DNA from: Microcaldota archaeon
GTDB lineage: Archaea; Micrarchaeota; Micrarchaeia; Micrarchaeales; Micrarchaeaceae
Length of the DNA: 13,681 bases
Direction of reading: 5' to 3'
NCBI GenBank assembly: GCA_013330215.1
Contig: DUIS01000062.1
Span: 1-13,681, forward strand
Part shown: piece after piece, positions 7,605-13,681 of the stretch
Numbering within the stretch: position 1 is the stretch's first letter
How the letters are laid out: the number at the start of each line of letters is the position of its first letter
Notes under the pieces: generated by a model
The model's input: only the letters and a program-made list of their open reading frames with translations
Databases searched by the model: none
Told to the model about the DNA's origin: nothing
Program-made: the position numbers and the translations under genes

Positions 7605-7802
7605 ATGTGCCAGGCTCCGGTCGGTAGGGTAATAGGCATAGGAGATAGGAAGATAACCGTAAAGTACAAAGGGAAGACCCGGGAACTGAATTCGAGGCTT
7701 GGGGATGTGAAGGTAGGGGATTATGTGCTTTTCTCCCTTGACATTGCGATTGACAAAGTCGACGAGGAGGAGGCAAAAACCATAACAAGCATGATGAAAT
7801 GA
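7605..7802 (+). CDS. hypC: Hydrogenase maturation chaperone HypC
   Basis: This 65-residue cytoplasmic chaperone works with HypD to build the Fe(CN)2CO group and deliver it to the immature large subunit. The N-terminus MCQAPVGRV keeps the essential Cys2, which is exposed after Met removal. Pro is at position 5 instead of the usual 6 (family MCxxxPGKV). The rest follows the HypC beta-barrel pattern, with DVKVGDYVLFSLDIAIDKV near 34-53 matching the family's VKVGDYVLVHxGxAIxK. At 65 residues it is slightly short for the family. Its TGA overlaps the ATG of the next gene (ATGA at 7799-7802), so the two are translationally coupled. HypA, B, D, E and F are not in the window. Confidence 0.85.
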   Translation: MCQAPVGRVIGIGDRKITVKYKGKTRELNSRLGDVKVGDYVLFSLDIAIDKVDEEEAKTITSMMK

Positions 7803-8353
7803 GAATGGACGAGGATGCCAGGAGGCTTTTCCTGAAATATGCAGTACCAAGCTGCGAAACCCATGTGAGAAGGCGCGAGATGCAGCAGAGTCGCGCGGAC
7901 GAGCTCATGGCAATCGTATCCGAGAACGGAAAGCTGCCGGATGACGCAGAGCAGACATTCAAGGTCGCACTTCAGGTATGCGGGGCATTGGCAGGGATAA
8001 TGCACAAGGATTCAATTGATGCGGATGTGGTAAGGGAATACTTCCTGGTGTTGCACAACAGGGTTGTGGATGAGCAGAAGGAGATGTTGAGGAATGTCGA
8101 CAGCCATTTTGACCCGGCAAGATGCAAGACATATTCTGGAAAGGTCATAAACATAGAGGGTGAAAATGCGGTTGTGGCGACTGAGCTGGGCAGACGCAAT
8201 TATAAGATGGCATTTGCAAGGGATGTCAAAAATGGGGATACCGTAGCAGTGCATTACGACTTCATAATAGAAAAGATACCGAAGTCTTGGAAGCCGTCGC
8301 AGCTGGTAGCTGCCACCCTAAACAAAAAGGAGAGGAGCAAAAGCACCTCGTGA
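7799..8353 (+). CDS. Hydrogenase-linked protein with helical N-terminal region and C-terminal HypC-like domain
   Basis: This is a 184-residue protein. Residues about 1-100 are mostly helical and I do not recognise them. Residues about 107-160 read like a second HypC fold: CKTYSGKVINIEGENAVVA, then DVKNGDTVAVHYDFIIEKI, which follows HypC's CxxxPGKV...VKxGDxVxVHxxFxIEK. Cys109 falls exactly where HypC has its catalytic Cys2 (four residues before GKV), but here it is internal, and Pro is replaced by Ser. The start ATG overlaps the hypC stop; ATG 7805 would drop two residues. The gene lies between hypC and the maturation endopeptidase, so a role in cofactor insertion or large-subunit handling is likely. 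The split role of two HypC-like barrels is inference. Confidence 0.75.
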   Translation: MRMDEDARRLFLKYAVPSCETHVRRREMQQSRADELMAIVSENGKLPDDAEQTFKVALQVCGALAGIMHKDSIDADVVREYFLVLHNRVVDEQKEMLRNVDSHFDPARCKTYSGKVINIEGENAVVATELGRRNYKMAFARDVKNGDTVAVHYDFIIEKIPKSWKPSQLVAATLNKKERSKSTS

Positions 8354-8376: not shown

Positions 8377-8766
8377 ATGTATAAGTACAAGATCCTTGTT
8401 TTCGGGAATCCGATAGTAAAGGTAGACAGCGTGCCCCTAAAACTGATAGGTAAATTAAGAGAAAAGTTTCCGGAGATCGAGTTCAGGGAATTCGACCCGA
8501 ACGAGAATCTTGAGAACGAGGGTAGAAAGCTCAACATCATAGACACCGTTGAAGGCATAGAGAGGGTCACGCTCATAACCGACATAGACGCGATACGGAC
8601 TCAGCACGTATACACGATGCATGATTTCGATCTGGGGCATGCGCTCAAGATCCTGAAGAAGCTGGACTATATCGATAGCGTAAGGATATTCGGGGTCCCC
8701 ATGAAAATAAGCGAAAGCGATGCGATTGAGCAGCTTACTTCATTGATCCGTTCCAGTTTATCTTGA
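8377..8766 (+). CDS. [NiFe] hydrogenase maturation endopeptidase (HybD/HycI-like)
   Basis: This 129-residue protease would remove the C-terminal tail of the hydrogenase large subunit after nickel insertion, so that the active site can close. ILVFGNPIVKVDS at 6-18 matches the family's GNPLxxDD start; the first Asp is replaced by Val but Asp17 remains at the metal-ligand position. LNIIDTVEG gives Asp56, and YTMHDFDLGHAL gives His82 in the conserved MHDxxL context. The three expected metal ligands are therefore present. The frame is open further upstream to 8287, but that overlaps the previous gene; ATG 8377 begins at the conserved strand and leaves a 23-nt gap. The last 9 nt overlap the convergent methyltransferase gene. 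The 3' end also contains a fossil of the hydrogenase tail on the other strand. Confidence 0.82.
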   Translation: MYKYKILVFGNPIVKVDSVPLKLIGKLREKFPEIEFREFDPNENLENEGRKLNIIDTVEGIERVTLITDIDAIRTQHVYTMHDFDLGHALKILKKLDYIDSVRIFGVPMKISESDAIEQLTSLIRSSLS

Positions 8767-8772
8767 GGAAGT
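8735..8772 (-). pseudogene. Fossil of the original hydrogenase large-subunit C-terminal tail
   Basis: Read on the minus strand in the hydrogenase frame, the repeat copy at 8751-8772 continues as FLKINWNGSMK followed by TAA at 8737-8735. The functional gene now ends FLRINWKSLEQDRR. The first six residues differ only by Lys/Arg, then the sequences diverge at the repeat boundary. I interpret this as the old 3' end of the large-subunit gene, displaced when the methyltransferase segment entered. It lies wholly within the endopeptidase coding region on the opposite strand and in the methyltransferase 3' end. Confidence 0.6.
8751..8772 (+). repeat. 22-bp direct repeat, outer copy
   Basis: Identical at 21 of 22 positions to 9434-9455, with the single difference at 8763 (t) against 9446 (c). 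It begins TTCCAGTTTATC and ends GAGGAAGT. Identity stops abruptly on both sides. The copies bound a segment of about 660 bp containing the methyltransferase gene. Confidence 0.9.
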
Positions 8773-9384
8773 TAATGTCTTTTCGGCTAAGAGTAGCCAA
8801 TGCCTTTCTTTTGCGGTAGGTTTGGTCAATTTAATAACTCTAAAATCACAAAAGGATTTCTTTATTTCGTGTTCTGTAAAGAGATGATGCACCATTCCTT
8901 TTTCTGGACCGCTTAATGTTACATACGTCCCGCGTTCTATACGTTTTCCCTTTTTAATCTCTTCTCTAGAAGTAAGACTTACAAAAAACAGTCCTTTGTT
9001 TTTAAGGACTCGGTGAACCTCATTTATAGCTCTGTTTATATCACTCAATTTATTATGATGTAGTGCGCTTGTGCTTATTACTGCGTCAAAGCTGTTATTC
9101 TGGAATGGCAATCTCGTAACATCATGATTTATCAGTATATAATTTTCCAGTCCGGCACTATTTAGGTTTTTTTGTGCTGCGTCCAATCCTAGCGAGGTAA
9201 TATCCTGTCCTACAACAAAAAAGCCCTTCTTTGTCAGATATACCATATGTCTGCCTGCGCCGCACCCAAAGTCTAAAATTTTTCTGACTTTCCTCTTTTT
9301 AAAAACAGGCACCAGCTCAACCATATACTTGCCAGGCTCTTTAGTAAATTTATGGTCTTTCCAAAACCTGTCCCATGTTTGCAT
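8758..9384 (-). CDS. Class I SAM-dependent methyltransferase, probable insert of foreign origin
   Basis: This is a 208-residue cytoplasmic methyltransferase of the UbiE/type-11 kind, substrate unknown. Motif I ILDFGCGAGRHMVYL spans 36-50. An acidic residue at the end of strand 2 (GQD, D61) should bind the SAM ribose, NHDVTRLPF (86-94) fits the adenine-contact loop, and SFDAVISTSALHH (98-110) is motif II/post-II. The gene is much richer in A+T than its neighbours: 8821-8880 has 15 G/C in 60 bases, against 34 in 60 at 10201-10260. It also prefers AAA, TTA and ATT-type codons. It is flanked by 22-bp direct repeats, and its own last codons and stop (SSR-TAA) lie in the outer copy. It starts 24 nt after the hydrogenase stop and may be read from that operon. 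I see no integrase or transposase. Confidence 0.88.
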   Translation of the reverse strand: MQTWDRFWKDHKFTKEPGKYMVELVPVFKKRKVRKILDFGCGAGRHMVYLTKKGFFVVGQDITSLGLDAAQKNLNSAGLENYILINHDVTRLPFQNNSFDAVISTSALHHNKLSDINRAINEVHRVLKNKGLFFVSLTSREEIKKGKRIERGTYVTLSGPEKGMVHHLFTEHEIKKSFCDFRVIKLTKPTAKERHWLLLAEKTLTSSR

Positions 9385-9408
9385 AAATCCACACTAAACA
9401 ATTTAGAT

Positions 9409-10755
9409 TCATCGTCTGTCTTGTTCTAGACTTTTCCAGTTTATCCTGAGGAAGTGGCTTGCGCAGCTCATGCATGGGTCGTACGCCCTTATCAGCTTCT
9501 CTATCTCGTACTCTATGTACTTCCTGTCCCGTTCCATGTTCTCGTTGACAAGCTGCACTACGCTCTTCTCCATCCCTATCGCGTTCTGCTGTGTAGGGAC
9601 TATTATGTTGCCGTACTTGACCTTCCCGGTCTTGTCGACCGATATCATGTAATAGAGTGTTCCCCTTGGCGCCTCTATCAACCCTATACCCTCACCCTCC
9701 CTCACTATGACTGGGTCGTTGTGCTCTTCGGTGAACTCGTTCGCCTCGAGCAGTTCTATTGAATGGTCTACACAGTGGAGCAGCTCTATCGCCTGCGCGA
9801 GGTTGTTGTGGTATATGTTCTTCGATGGAAATACACCTAGGTACTTCGAGAGGTCAGCCTTTGTCGCACTGTGAAGGCTGTCCTTGTTGAGGTTCATCCT
9901 CGCGATCGCGCCTACCATGTAGTCCTTGCCCTTGAAGCTGTATCCTGTCGCCTGCGAGTATGGTATCACCACCCTGTTCAGGTAGTCCCAATACCTGTCC
10001 TCCTTTATCGATTCGCCTTTTGAATCTGATATCATCCCGTTCGAGAACGAGAAGTCCTTTGTGACAAGCGACACGAAATCTATGTCGCGCTCGAGCTTGA
10101 ACTGGCAGTTGTAGAATATCTCTACGAACTCTATGACGTACTCCCTCACCGATTTGAGCTCGTCAACGATTTTCTTTACTGCATCCTTGTCAGGTATATG
10201 AGAGAACTTGCCCACCTCTGCGAATGTTGCGTGCACAGCCCTTCCCGCTATCACCTTCGATAGGTTGTTGCCCGCGCCCTTTATCGCGAAGGCCTTCCTT
10301 ATCATCTCGTCCTGCGATTTGTCGAAGTCAAGAACAGAATCCTTGCCGAAGAGGTCCGGCAGGCAGAACATGAATAGGTGAAGCGCATGGTCCCTTATCA
10401 TCATGCCGTAGAGCGAGAGCTTCCTGAGCAGAAGCGTTTGGTCAGTTGGCGTGTAGCCAAATGCACGCTCAACCGCCTCGGAACAGCAGGTAAGATGCGC
10501 TATGCTGCAAGTGCCGCAGATGCGCGATGTCATGAGCGGCAGCGATATCGCGAACTTGTTCCTTATTGCCTGCGTGTAGAACCTCTTGCTCTCTGTTATC
10601 TTCAGCTTTGCGTATTTCACTTTCTTGTCCTTTATCAGTATGTCCATGGTGCCGTGCCCCTCCATCTTTGTGAGGTTCTCGAGCACTATGTGCTCTCCTC
10701 CCTTCTCTTCGTGGGAATGCTCGCCTATGAAATCGAAATCCTCCCCCTTATGCAT
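9409..10755 (-). CDS. [NiFe] hydrogenase large (catalytic) subunit
   Basis: This 448-residue protein carries the Ni-Fe site that splits or makes H2. The N-terminal Cys pair is in RICGTCSIAH (C80, C83, H87) and the C-terminal pair in DPCMSCASH (426-434; C428, C431). All four nickel ligands are therefore present, and an active enzyme is expected, unlike the related NuoD of complex I. KMEGHG at 30-35 is the usual N-terminal signature. Endopeptidase cleavage is expected after His434, removing FLRINWKSLEQDRR. That tail is where the methyltransferase segment appears to have inserted. ATG 10755 overlaps the small-subunit gene by 8 nt. The protein resembles soluble group 3-type enzymes more than membrane group 1, but I cannot assign a subgroup. 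No diaphorase, F420 or ferredoxin-type subunit is in the window. Confidence 0.93.
   Translation of the reverse strand: MHKGEDFDFIGEHSHEEKGGEHIVLENLTKMEGHGTMDILIKDKKVKYAKLKITESKRFYTQAIRNKFAISLPLMTSRICGTCSIAHLTCCSEAVERAFGYTPTDQTLLLRKLSLYGMMIRDHALHLFMFCLPDLFGKDSVLDFDKSQDEMIRKAFAIKGAGNNLSKVIAGRAVHATFAEVGKFSHIPDKDAVKKIVDELKSVREYVIEFVEIFYNCQFKLERDIDFVSLVTKDFSFSNGMISDSKGESIKEDRYWDYLNRVVIPYSQATGYSFKGKDYMVGAIARMNLNKDSLHSATKADLSKYLGVFPSKNIYHNNLAQAIELLHCVDHSIELLEANEFTEEHNDPVIVREGEGIGLIEAPRGTLYYMISVDKTGKVKYGNIIVPTQQNAIGMEKSVVQLVNENMERDRKYIEYEIEKLIRAYDPCMSCASHFLRINWKSLEQDRR
9434..9455 (+). repeat. 22-bp direct repeat, inner copy (in the hydrogenase large-subunit gene)
   Basis: This copy encodes, on the minus strand, the last two bases of the His434 codon and then FLRINW plus two bases, the start of the tail removed during maturation. 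It matches 8751-8772 at 21 of 22 positions. Confidence 0.9.
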
Positions 10756-11233
10756 TTATCACACCAAACTCCTTGAGATACTTGTCCATGATGCCCAGGA
10801 ATGCCTCCTCCTGCATAGGGCACCCCGCGACCTCGTCGTCTATAGGCACTACGTCTTTCACCATGCGCACCTTGTCAGCCTGCTTGAACCTTACCAGAAG
10901 GAACTCTATCTCCTTCTTGAGCTCATCGTCGAACATGTTCCTCTGCCCTGCAGGCATGCCGTTGACAGCACACGATCCTATCGCCACGATCTTCTTCGAA
11001 TGCTTCCTTATTGAGCGCAGCTTCTTCGCGTCCTCGTCGTTAGTTATCGCGCCCTCGACGAAGGCGACGTCTATGTTGTCAAGCTTGTTGTTCTTCTTGA
11101 GGACCCTCGCATAGCGTATGTCAAGGAGATCCTTCCACTTGAAGAAATTCTCGTTCATAAGCTCTATCCATACCATTGTGCTATCCTCACAACAAGTAAA
11201 AGAGAACCACCCTATCCTAAGCTTCTTCTCCAT
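10748..11233 (-). CDS. [NiFe] hydrogenase small subunit (20-kDa / NuoB-like family)
   Basis: This 161-residue electron-transfer partner of the large subunit should hold one proximal [4Fe-4S] cluster. Candidate ligands are C14 and C15 (SFTCCEDST), C88 (GSCAVNGMPAGQRN) and C138 (AGCPM). The adjacent Cys pair resembles complex I NuoB rather than the CxxC spacing usual in hydrogenase small subunits. It has no Tat signal and no extra C-terminal cluster domain, so the dimer should be cytoplasmic. It overlaps the large-subunit gene by 8 nt. A TATA-like box about 26 nt upstream puts the predicted transcription start at or next to ATG 11233, so the mRNA is probably leaderless and independent of pyrD 40 nt upstream. 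The electron acceptor or donor is not evident. Confidence 0.88.
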   Translation of the reverse strand: MEKKLRIGWFSFTCCEDSTMVWIELMNENFFKWKDLLDIRYARVLKKNNKLDNIDVAFVEGAITNDEDAKKLRSIRKHSKKIVAIGSCAVNGMPAGQRNMFDDELKKEIEFLLVRFKQADKVRMVKDVVPIDDEVAGCPMQEEAFLGIMDKYLKEFGVINA

Positions 11234-12405: not shown

Positions 12406-13095
12406 CTATCTTATCGTGCACGAGTCCACGTACATCCTTGCGGACCTCATCATGCCTTCGAATTCCTCGTCGCTGTAGGCATCGCCTGCCGCAAATGTGG
12501 GGTCAAGCGTCTCTGATTTGACAAAGCGCTGCAGTATGTATCTCTTTGCGCCAGAGAGCGATTTCGCCATGCTCGCTATGTCATCTGCGGATGTGAGCGA
12601 GCTCGCCACTGTTGTGCGGAACTCGTAGTCTATCCCGCCCCCTTTTATCAGGGAGATGCTGCGCCTGAGCTTTTCCATGTCCACGTTTGTGGCTGTGACT
12701 GTGCTGTACTTTTCAAGCGGTGCCTTGATGTCCATAGCTATATAATCAACAAGTCCCTTTTTAATTATAGGCTCCAGTACATCCGGGGAGACCCCTGATG
12801 TGTCGAGCTTTACGAGGTAGCCCATCCCCTTTACGGTGCGCATGAATTCTGGAAGGCCTGCCTGTATGGTCGGCTCTCCCCCAGTTATGACAACGCCGTC
12901 AAGCAGCTTCCTTCTCGATTCGAGGAAGCTCATCACATGCCCTTCTGGTATGGGCGTGCAGTACCTCTCCGGGAGCACAAGCGCCGGGTTGTGGCAGTAG
13001 CGGCACCTGAAGTTGCATCCCCTTGTGAACACAACCGCTGACACCCTGCCGGGATAGTCTATCAGCGATACCTTCTGCAGCCCGCCTATGATCAC
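12406..13095 (-). CDS. nrdG: Anaerobic ribonucleoside-triphosphate reductase activating protein (radical SAM)
   Basis: This radical SAM enzyme uses its [4Fe-4S] cluster and SAM to form the glycyl radical on NrdD. The 229-residue protein has GGLQKVSLIDYPGRVSAVVFTRGC followed by the cluster motif CNFRCRYC (C27, C31, C34), then ITGGEPT at 70-76 for SAM binding. The opening GLxKxSxIDYPG is typical of this activase family. The frame is open upstream to 13311, but that region is the 3' end of nrdD. The likely start is GTG 13095, which overlaps the nrdD stop (GTGA), giving a normal-length protein and coupled translation. It is followed 7 nt later by pyrD. Confidence 0.92.
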   Translation of the reverse strand: MIIGGLQKVSLIDYPGRVSAVVFTRGCNFRCRYCHNPALVLPERYCTPIPEGHVMSFLESRRKLLDGVVITGGEPTIQAGLPEFMRTVKGMGYLVKLDTSGVSPDVLEPIIKKGLVDYIAMDIKAPLEKYSTVTATNVDMEKLRRSISLIKGGGIDYEFRTTVASSLTSADDIASMAKSLSGAKRYILQRFVKSETLDPTFAAGDAYSDEEFEGMMRSARMYVDSCTIR

Positions 13096-13681
13096 AGGCC
13101 CACCGCATAGGTTTTCCTCTCCTTGAACTCGGACTTCTTGCCCTTGTTCCACTGCCTTATAGGCCTCAGGTAGCCCACTATCCTTGAGTAGACCTCGCAT
13201 TCCGCATCGCACTTCTCGCACCTGATGTGCTCGCCCGCATTGTAGCCGTGGTTCGGGCAGACGCTGAATGTCGGTGTTATGGTGAAGTAAGGCAGCTTGT
13301 AGTTGTTGCATATCTTCTTCACGAGCGCCTTCAGCCCCTTCGTGTCCGTTATCCGCTCGCCGACGAATATGTGCACTACCGTGCCCCCGGTGTATTTAGC
13401 CTGGAATTCGTCCTGCAGGTCAAGCGCCTCGAAGACGTCGTCCGTATGGTTCACCGGAAGCTGAGTGGAGTTGGTGTAGAATGGGTCTGCGCCCTCGCAG
13501 TATGCACTCTCGTTGCCGCACATTATGTGCTTGTAGAGCTCCTTGTCCTTCTTTGCGAGCCTGTAGGATGTGCCCTCTGCGGGGGTGGCCTCGAGGTTGT
13601 AGTTGTTGCCCGTCTGCTTCTGGAACTCGGTCATCCTGTCCCTCATGTGGTCCATCACCCGCAGCGCGAACTTCTTGCCGT
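13092..13681 (-). CDS. nrdD: Anaerobic (class III) ribonucleoside-triphosphate reductase, C-terminal part, runs off right edge
   Basis: Reduces ribonucleoside triphosphates to deoxynucleotides under anoxic conditions. Only the last 195 residues are in the window; the reading frame continues past the right edge without a start. Visible family marks are DPFYTNSTQLPVN, the segment TPTFSVCPNHGYNAGEH, and the zinc-binding cysteines in RCEKCDAECEVYSR. The glycyl-radical segment RIVGYLRPIRQWNKGKKSEF follows, where the Gly of VGY is the radical site. The stop overlaps the nrdG start. The enzyme's radical is destroyed by oxygen, which supports an anaerobic lifestyle. N-terminal ATP-cone and barrel regions cannot be judged here. 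Confidence 0.95.
   Translation of the reverse strand, partial: GKKFALRVMDHMRDRMTEFQKQTGNNYNLEATPAEGTSYRLAKKDKELYKHIMCGNESAYCEGADPFYTNSTQLPVNHTDDVFEALDLQDEFQAKYTGGTVVHIFVGERITDTKGLKALVKKICNNYKLPYFTITPTFSVCPNHGYNAGEHIRCEKCDAECEVYSRIVGYLRPIRQWNKGKKSEFKERKTYAVGL

Follow-up and report, generated by a model that had tools for sequence, protein, structure and literature searches.

Here we describe the junction between the gene for the large subunit of a NiFe hydrogenase and that for a hydrogenase maturation protease in a stretch of 13,681 nucleotides (hereafter the window) from a Microcaldota archaeon of the family Micrarchaeaceae (contig DUIS01000062.1 of assembly GCA_013330215.1). A foreign fragment carrying a single methyltransferase gene has probably been inserted into what was once a 32-bp overlap of these two convergent genes, duplicating its target and leaving a fossil of the old hydrogenase tail. 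We found a 22-bp duplication flanking the methyltransferase gene, an overlap of the same two genes in relatives, an old tail that matches theirs in length and geometry, and similar duplications around other cargo. The window is one entire contig (C40) of a draft genome of 752 kb in 101 contigs, estimated to be 75% complete. In the labels of this analysis, G-numbers stand for genomes, L-numbers for loci and P-numbers for relatives in the protein database.

The direct repeat consists of TTCCAGTTTATCTTGAGGAAGT at 8751-8772 and TTCCAGTTTATCCTGAGGAAGT at 9434-9455, which agree at 21 of 22 positions. No other two 22-mers of the window come within one mismatch of each other, and one of 200 Markov-resampled windows contained such a pair; with three mismatches allowed, the 22-mer occurs at only these two places in the genome. 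The 661 bp between the copies (8773-9433, minus strand) have a GC content of 0.374 against 0.514 for the window; 661-bp windows taken every 20 bp, the insert included, give a minimum of 0.375 and a first percentile of 0.384. This insert contains one methyltransferase gene and nothing else. It has no terminal inverted repeats: its inverted-repeat score was reached in 844 of 1000 shuffles. The claim from which this analysis started, namely that a 22-bp repeat, identical at 21 positions, flanks an AT-rich methyltransferase gene, is thus confirmed.

The copy at 9434-9455 (minus strand) is retained by the hydrogenase large subunit, a protein of 448 amino acids (9409-10755, minus strand) with both the DPCxxCxxH motif and PF00374, as in group 3-like NiFe hydrogenases; the exact subgroup is not settled, and the best NCBIfam matches, ShyA/HydA, lie under their curated cut-offs. 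The motif, here DPCMSCASH, is followed by the tail FLRINWKSLEQDRR. In this group of hydrogenases, cleavage falls after the His of the motif, and the tails of 118 relatives with the motif are mostly of 7-9 residues. Reading 9434-9455 bears out the start that the original prediction had assigned to this copy, within the His434 codon: it encodes (H)FLRINW and ends two nucleotides after the Trp codon. Everything beyond these two nucleotides, which are the first two bases of the post-Trp Lys codon and belong to the repeat, is derived from the insert, including the stop; KSLEQDRR would accordingly be a replacement tail, as had been supposed.

The far copy lies at 8751-8772 (minus strand). On the plus strand, it provides the final codons of the protease, SSLS plus stop; on the minus strand, it holds the stop of the methyltransferase and the beginning of the fossil tail. 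The same 22 bp serve two genes, as the tail of the hydrogenase and as the C-terminus of the protease. The protease gene takes up 16 of the 22 bases in the far copy, and the remaining six match as well. Read in the hydrogenase frame, the far copy continues as FLKINWNGSMK and a stop (8735-8770, minus strand), overlapping the protease gene (8380-8766, plus strand) by 32 bp (8735-8766). This fossil tail is as long as that of the nearest relative, FLKINWSELVK plus stop (P0022), and together with the window's own protease C-terminus it fits only as a 32-nt overlap. The suggestion that it represents an older tail is thus consistent with both the tail length of P0022 and the 32-nt geometry. That of an insertion at the disposable tail stands as an insertion with a fossil, and is refined in one respect: the target also encodes the C-terminus of the protease, which is why its duplication matters.

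The protease, which would formerly have overlapped the hydrogenase gene by 32 bp, appears to be HycI-like. It has no Pfam match itself; PF01750 is found in six of the 120 relatives listed, many of which bear the source name 'Ni,Fe-hydrogenase maturation factor'. A C-terminal extension on the large subunit of a [NiFe] hydrogenase calls, according to the literature, for a specific protease whose gene is said to lie near that of the large subunit (PMC7654741). The inserted gene (8758-9384, minus strand) encodes a class I S-adenosylmethionine (SAM) methyltransferase of 208 amino acids (PF08241/PF13649), with Methyltransf_11/25 matches at E 4.2e-22 and 5.3e-22 and a GCGxGR motif conserved in the alignment. 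Its C-terminus comprises AEK followed by the six residues TLTSSR, with SSR and the stop encoded by the far repeat copy. Relatives with the AEK motif stop 1-4 residues past it (five of the ten aligned and three further ones, eight in total). Since the methyltransferase tail is longer than these and ends within the repeat, its original stop was probably lost at the junction. The gene begins 24 nt beyond the stop of the hydrogenase, in the same orientation, and the two probably share a transcript; there is no sign of the methyltransferase belonging to the hydrogenase enzyme. Four methyltransferase-like matches are present in the genome, the other three being weak (E 5.3e-7 or worse). A viral origin was considered and rejected: 75 viral loci match, none closely, the best by E-value showing 33% identity over part of the sequence. 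Relatives with 56-61% identity occur in G113, G131 and G118, and no hydrogenase was recognized by eye in their 3.6-kb loci. Clustering of the proteins places that of the methyltransferase (8758-9384) on 14 contigs and that of the hydrogenase on three.

The hydrogenase is patchily distributed, with a match at E 1e-60 in 12 of 164 genomes of the order and in 59 of 301 of the class (the class-level and phylum-level searches cover the same 301 genomes). The seven closest named records are all metagenome-assembled genomes (MAGs) of Candidatus Micrarchaeota or Micrarchaeaceae, and the sole other genome of the genus lacks the hydrogenase as well as a close methyltransferase. To obtain a junction set, we combined unnamed Micrarchaeota genomes with named records from other phyla, giving 71 loci, of which the 69 with the motif were analyzed (L128 and L100, which have no motif, were dropped). 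In 28 of these 69 junctions, the hydrogenase and protease genes overlap convergently by 4-113 bp, commonly by 20-32 bp. The overlap is exactly 20 bp in 11 junctions, and ten of these show a single register with the protease stop 7 nt after the start of the His codon. The remaining junctions include ten at 0-88 bp, 22 at 249-3428 bp, eight without a convergent partner and one that was misassigned (G207). Among the 12 genomes with the hydrogenase in the window's order, seven have overlapping and five separated genes, the window being one of the latter. The overlap also extends to a woesearchaeal MAG (L105), a Nitrososphaeraceae MAG (L098) and two Nitrososphaera-labelled MAGs (L094 and L095), the last two with a 32-bp overlap and an 11-residue tail, FLRIKWNRSFV. 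These two come from contigs of 299 kb and 8.8 kb and carry the gene pair at 60% identity, perhaps through transfer or mis-binning.

Further evidence for the overlap comes from a C-terminus pair test, which asks if any DNA could encode both protein ends on opposite strands. Hydrogenase and protease records were paired if their longest contigs have equal size; with 84 of the 120 listed hydrogenases and 93 of the 120 listed proteases entered, this yielded 54 pairs (30 in an earlier run). As many as 37 of the 54 fit an overlap (20 nt in 21 pairs, 23 nt in 11, 32 nt in four and 59 nt in one), against six of 400 controls with shuffled protease ends and 21 of 400 with mispaired real ends. The closest hydrogenase in the protein database, P0022 (88% identity, tail FLKINWSELVK), is the sister of the window's protein in a tree of 53 hydrogenases with a support of 100/99. 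The protease P0142 (78% identity) has a longest contig of 1,048,676 bp, the same as P0022, and the sole fit of their C-termini is a 32-nt overlap. Among the 20 methyltransferase relatives listed, none has a longest contig of this size. Hence, a relative of the kind that had been sought, with an FLKINWNGSMK-like tail overlapping the protease gene, is available as judged from protein ends, and the former tail-to-tail overlap of about 32 bp postulated for the window agrees with this fit and with the overlaps of relatives. Within Micrarchaeota, the median share of overlapping genes is put at 39% for one lineage and at 4.5% for another (PMC12892359). We found no description of the hydrogenase-protease junction in the open-licence literature searched.

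Similar duplications with other cargo were recovered in a second micrarchaeon and a nanoarchaeal MAG. In G022, of the same family, a deoxyribosyltransferase gene (PF05014) occupies the corresponding place, and the protease end contains an in-register copy (18/20) with a fossil reading LLKIN-stop-R-stop. P0036, in the starred group of four that includes G022, has the tail FLKINWR, and its protease fits a 20-nt overlap. A scan for separated direct repeats covered 143 loci (940 kb) and listed 29 pairs; one 21/22 repeat, in G178, has coordinates inside the hydrogenase gene and was not retained. The nanoarchaeal MAG locus L103 has a 21/22 repeat with one copy at the hydrogenase end and the other 511 bp further downstream; with one gap, the repeat extends to 34 bp at 88%, and the site occurs in its genome in two copies only, with three mismatches allowed. 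Its far copy reads HFLKVNWT plus stop, which equals the tail of the sister locus L101. L101 in turn has a second tail-like copy, in the version of L103, about 72 nt downstream of its own tail, with no room for a gene between them. A third copy is probably present at the protease end of L103. At the hydrogenase end of G252 (L113), an in-register tail duplication with copies 43 bp apart encloses no gene and is a possible cargo-free intermediate. As a separate observation, L101 (7315-7470) and L103 (7387-7980) share two versions of the tail (W-T-stop and W-D-E-x-stop) with their order exchanged: each hydrogenase ends in one version, and the other follows about 72 nt (L101) or 511 nt (L103) downstream, which might suggest shuffling by recombination.

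Gap-wide scans complement these individual cases. A fossil shuffle test proved not specific on its own: among ten adjacent control junctions, L096, L097, L099, G265 and G259 matched themselves (the same DNA), G252 returned its in-register duplication, and the match in G180 (11/12, at 0.005) is out of register. The scores of the separated junctions G227 (0.0025), G182 (0.01) and G175 (0.03) were all out of register and were rejected; G027, suggestive by eye, failed the test; and the score of 0.005 for L103 reflects the third copy, in a different register. A protein-level gap scan gave nine sense matches and one antisense match, those used being from L103 (two), the window and L101; it missed G022 because the Phe and Trp codons are changed there. 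In sum, 18 of the 22 separated junctions, i.e. those beyond the window, G022, L103 and L101 with its extra copy, have no accepted fossil. The cargo shows no preference of orientation, the longest open reading frame (ORF) being on the hydrogenase strand in 12 of the 22 gaps. The longest ORFs of ten of these gaps gave matches to HD, GNAT, deoxyribosyltransferase, DegT and TauE, a Zot-like domain near the cut-off and a methyltransferase domain below it; three gave nothing.

Several of these findings weigh against an insertion with target duplication as the account of the window and, in particular, of its parallels. The empty site of P0022 is deduced from protein ends and not read as DNA, and its post-Trp residues (SELVK) differ from those of the fossil (NGSMK), with agreement in length. 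P0052, nearer to G022 than P0036, ends in FLRINWK, and of the two only P0036 has a protease to which its tail was fitted. For L103, we are unsure of the polarity, i.e. which of the tails is older, and the overlap is seen in just one (G320) of four relatives of its lineage with a nearby convergent protease. Together with the probable third copy, this means that saving an overlap cannot explain the duplication in L103. A convincing far-side fossil is found in three of the 22 separated junctions (the window, G022 and L103), and most separations may have arisen otherwise. Finally, the limits of the duplication are similar in all three cargo cases, as would be expected of a sequence-specific enzyme too.

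With these points in mind, we consider the following history probable and, in its main elements (insertion with duplication, fossil tail and former 32-bp overlap), well supported. Ancestrally, the large-subunit and maturation-protease genes would have been convergent with a 32-bp overlap, their shared bases encoding both the cleaved tail of the hydrogenase and the C-terminus of the protease. A foreign fragment with one methyltransferase gene would then have entered the overlap, with 22 bp of target, from the His codon to the Trp codon, being duplicated in the same act. Each old gene would have retained one copy: the insert presumably furnished the hydrogenase with its present stop and the tail behind Trp, the former tail would persist as a fossil next to the gene of the protease, and the methyltransferase would have come to end inside the repeat. 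Insertion and duplication in one step could have come about through fill-in of a staggered break or through a step resembling transposition, by an enzyme that is not encoded here. We prefer the capture of a fragment, by repair or by such a step in trans, which was kept as both genes stay readable. Selection would retain those insertions that leave both gene ends readable, which would explain the duplication in survivors of an insertion into an overlap, though not that in L103.

A two-step course, in which a short tandem duplication of the overlap parts the genes and foreign DNA enters the free space later, is possible though doubtful. It is favored by the cargo-free duplication of G252 and by the second tail-like copy of L101 with no space for a gene. 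However, the match in G252 is short (12/13 as computed, 24/31 as counted by eye), and in the window no remainder of a longer tandem duplication is discernible by eye beside the copies.

Site-specific integration, with a trans-acting recombinase using the tail-coding sequence as its attachment site and the 22 bp as attL/attR, appears unlikely to us. In its favor, the duplications of the three cargo cases, from two phyla, start within a few bases of the His codon and reach at least about the Trp codon, and the exchange of a gene's last codons and stop matches a case of integration into a protein gene reported for Thaumarchaeota (PMC6563490). Against it, matches to the tyrosine recombinase (PF00589) and Cas1 (PF01867) domains are absent from the window's genome at its completeness of 75%, with 14/14 and 9/14 controls positive, respectively; no recombinase is found among the longest ORFs of the ten gaps or in the methyltransferase; and the 22-mer is confined to this locus of the genome. 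Moreover, the repeat of L103 extends to 34 bp, so the limits are not identical between cases. An attachment-site dyad was likewise rejected: the tail 22-mer looks palindromic, yet its symmetry is no better than synonymous codon choice gives (means of 5.41 versus 5.27 and 4.93 versus 4.76). Hence, the site-specific target proposed in the original prediction is not established, there being neither a tyrosine recombinase, Cas1 nor terminal inverted repeats, convincing fossils in only three of 22 junctions and cargo that varies by case; since duplications recur around much the same stretch, from His to Trp, in two phyla, the idea stays open. A more far-reaching form of it, which we consider a long shot, would have an unknown trans-acting enzyme insert single-gene cassettes at a recurrent archaeal docking site, the His-to-Trp stretch with its core of about 22 bp, generating integron-like arrays of tails, at which the exchanged tail copies of L101 and L103 might hint; this stretch would be used recurrently because it encodes only the discarded part of the enzyme.

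An assembly chimera is very improbable. The draft is in 101 contigs and the repeat is comparable in length to a small assembly k-mer, but the longest exact word common to both copies is 12 bp, which makes a join through a shared k-mer unlikely. Further, the methyltransferase cluster reaches a longest contig of 48,475 bp, the hydrogenase and protease clusters each reach one of 47,190 bp, longer than the window (the junction itself was not seen there), and similar structures exist in two other MAGs. Least credible is the absence of any insertion, with genes always apart and a 22-mer likeness arising by chance or codon constraint on unrelated C-termini: some conservation is expected because most far-copy bases code for the protease, but the bases outside that gene match too, the identity of the copies is 21/22, and the overlap is common among relatives and the sole fit for the nearest one, the fossil tail agreeing in length and geometry.

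Insertion with target duplication, if correct, has implications for overlapping genes at large. Two genes with common terminal bases would be expected to stay joined, since an insertion into those bases disrupts one of the pair; the present junction points to a way out, whereby the shared bases are duplicated and then diverge. In many genomes, a few dozen bases encode on one strand the tail that is removed and on the other the C-terminus of the protease responsible for its removal, across Micrarchaeota, a woesearchaeal MAG and MAGs labelled Nitrososphaera or Nitrososphaeraceae. The junction thus offers a natural experiment on the persistence and separation of overlapping genes and on the uptake of single genes by compact archaeal genomes.

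Elsewhere in the window, a hydrogenase small-subunit-like protein (10748-11233, minus strand; PF01058) is encoded next to the large subunit. Of two overlapping genes at 7605-8353, one is HypC-like, and the product of the other terminates in a HypC-like domain as well (PF01455, residues 109-162). At 12406-13658, near the contig end, a gene for a radical SAM protein adjoins an ORF that, judged by eye, is similar to the C-terminus of an anaerobic ribonucleotide reductase.

Precedents for the individual features of the junction are available. In Thaumarchaeota, 14 of 68 mapped elements are integrated in the 3'-distal parts of protein genes, and one with a predicted 13-bp att site replaced eight nucleotides, including the stop, and supplied a new stop (PMC6563490). 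The window resembles such elements, e.g. NitEve-E2, in its short direct repeats at the 3' end of a gene with new last codons and stop; those elements were checked against the empty site of a relative (PMC6563490), and for the window such a site is deduced from protein ends. Of the features of tyrosine-recombinase elements, direct repeats and unseparated relatives (28 of 69) are found here, and a recombinase is not. The thaumarchaeal elements are mobile (PMC6563490), whereas the insert of the window is 661 bp long and contains a single methyltransferase gene but no gene for a recombinase. The hupL elements of heterocyst-forming cyanobacteria likewise place DNA between direct repeats in a hydrogenase large-subunit gene (PMC4874684). 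These, however, interrupt the gene, encode xis recombinases and are excised in heterocyst differentiation, whereas the hydrogenase of the window stays readable, with no hint of excision (PMC4874684). Casposons too duplicate target sequences in the 3' portions of protein genes of archaea (PMC6563490), but the window's genome has no Cas1 match and the insert no terminal inverted repeats. Their lack, and the confinement of the repeat to a single locus, also distinguish it from an insertion sequence or a miniature inverted-repeat transposable element (MITE). Thus, insertion into the 3' ends of genes is already known; what sets the junction apart from NitEve-E2 (PMC6563490) is a target at which two convergent genes have their ends in common and are both preserved.

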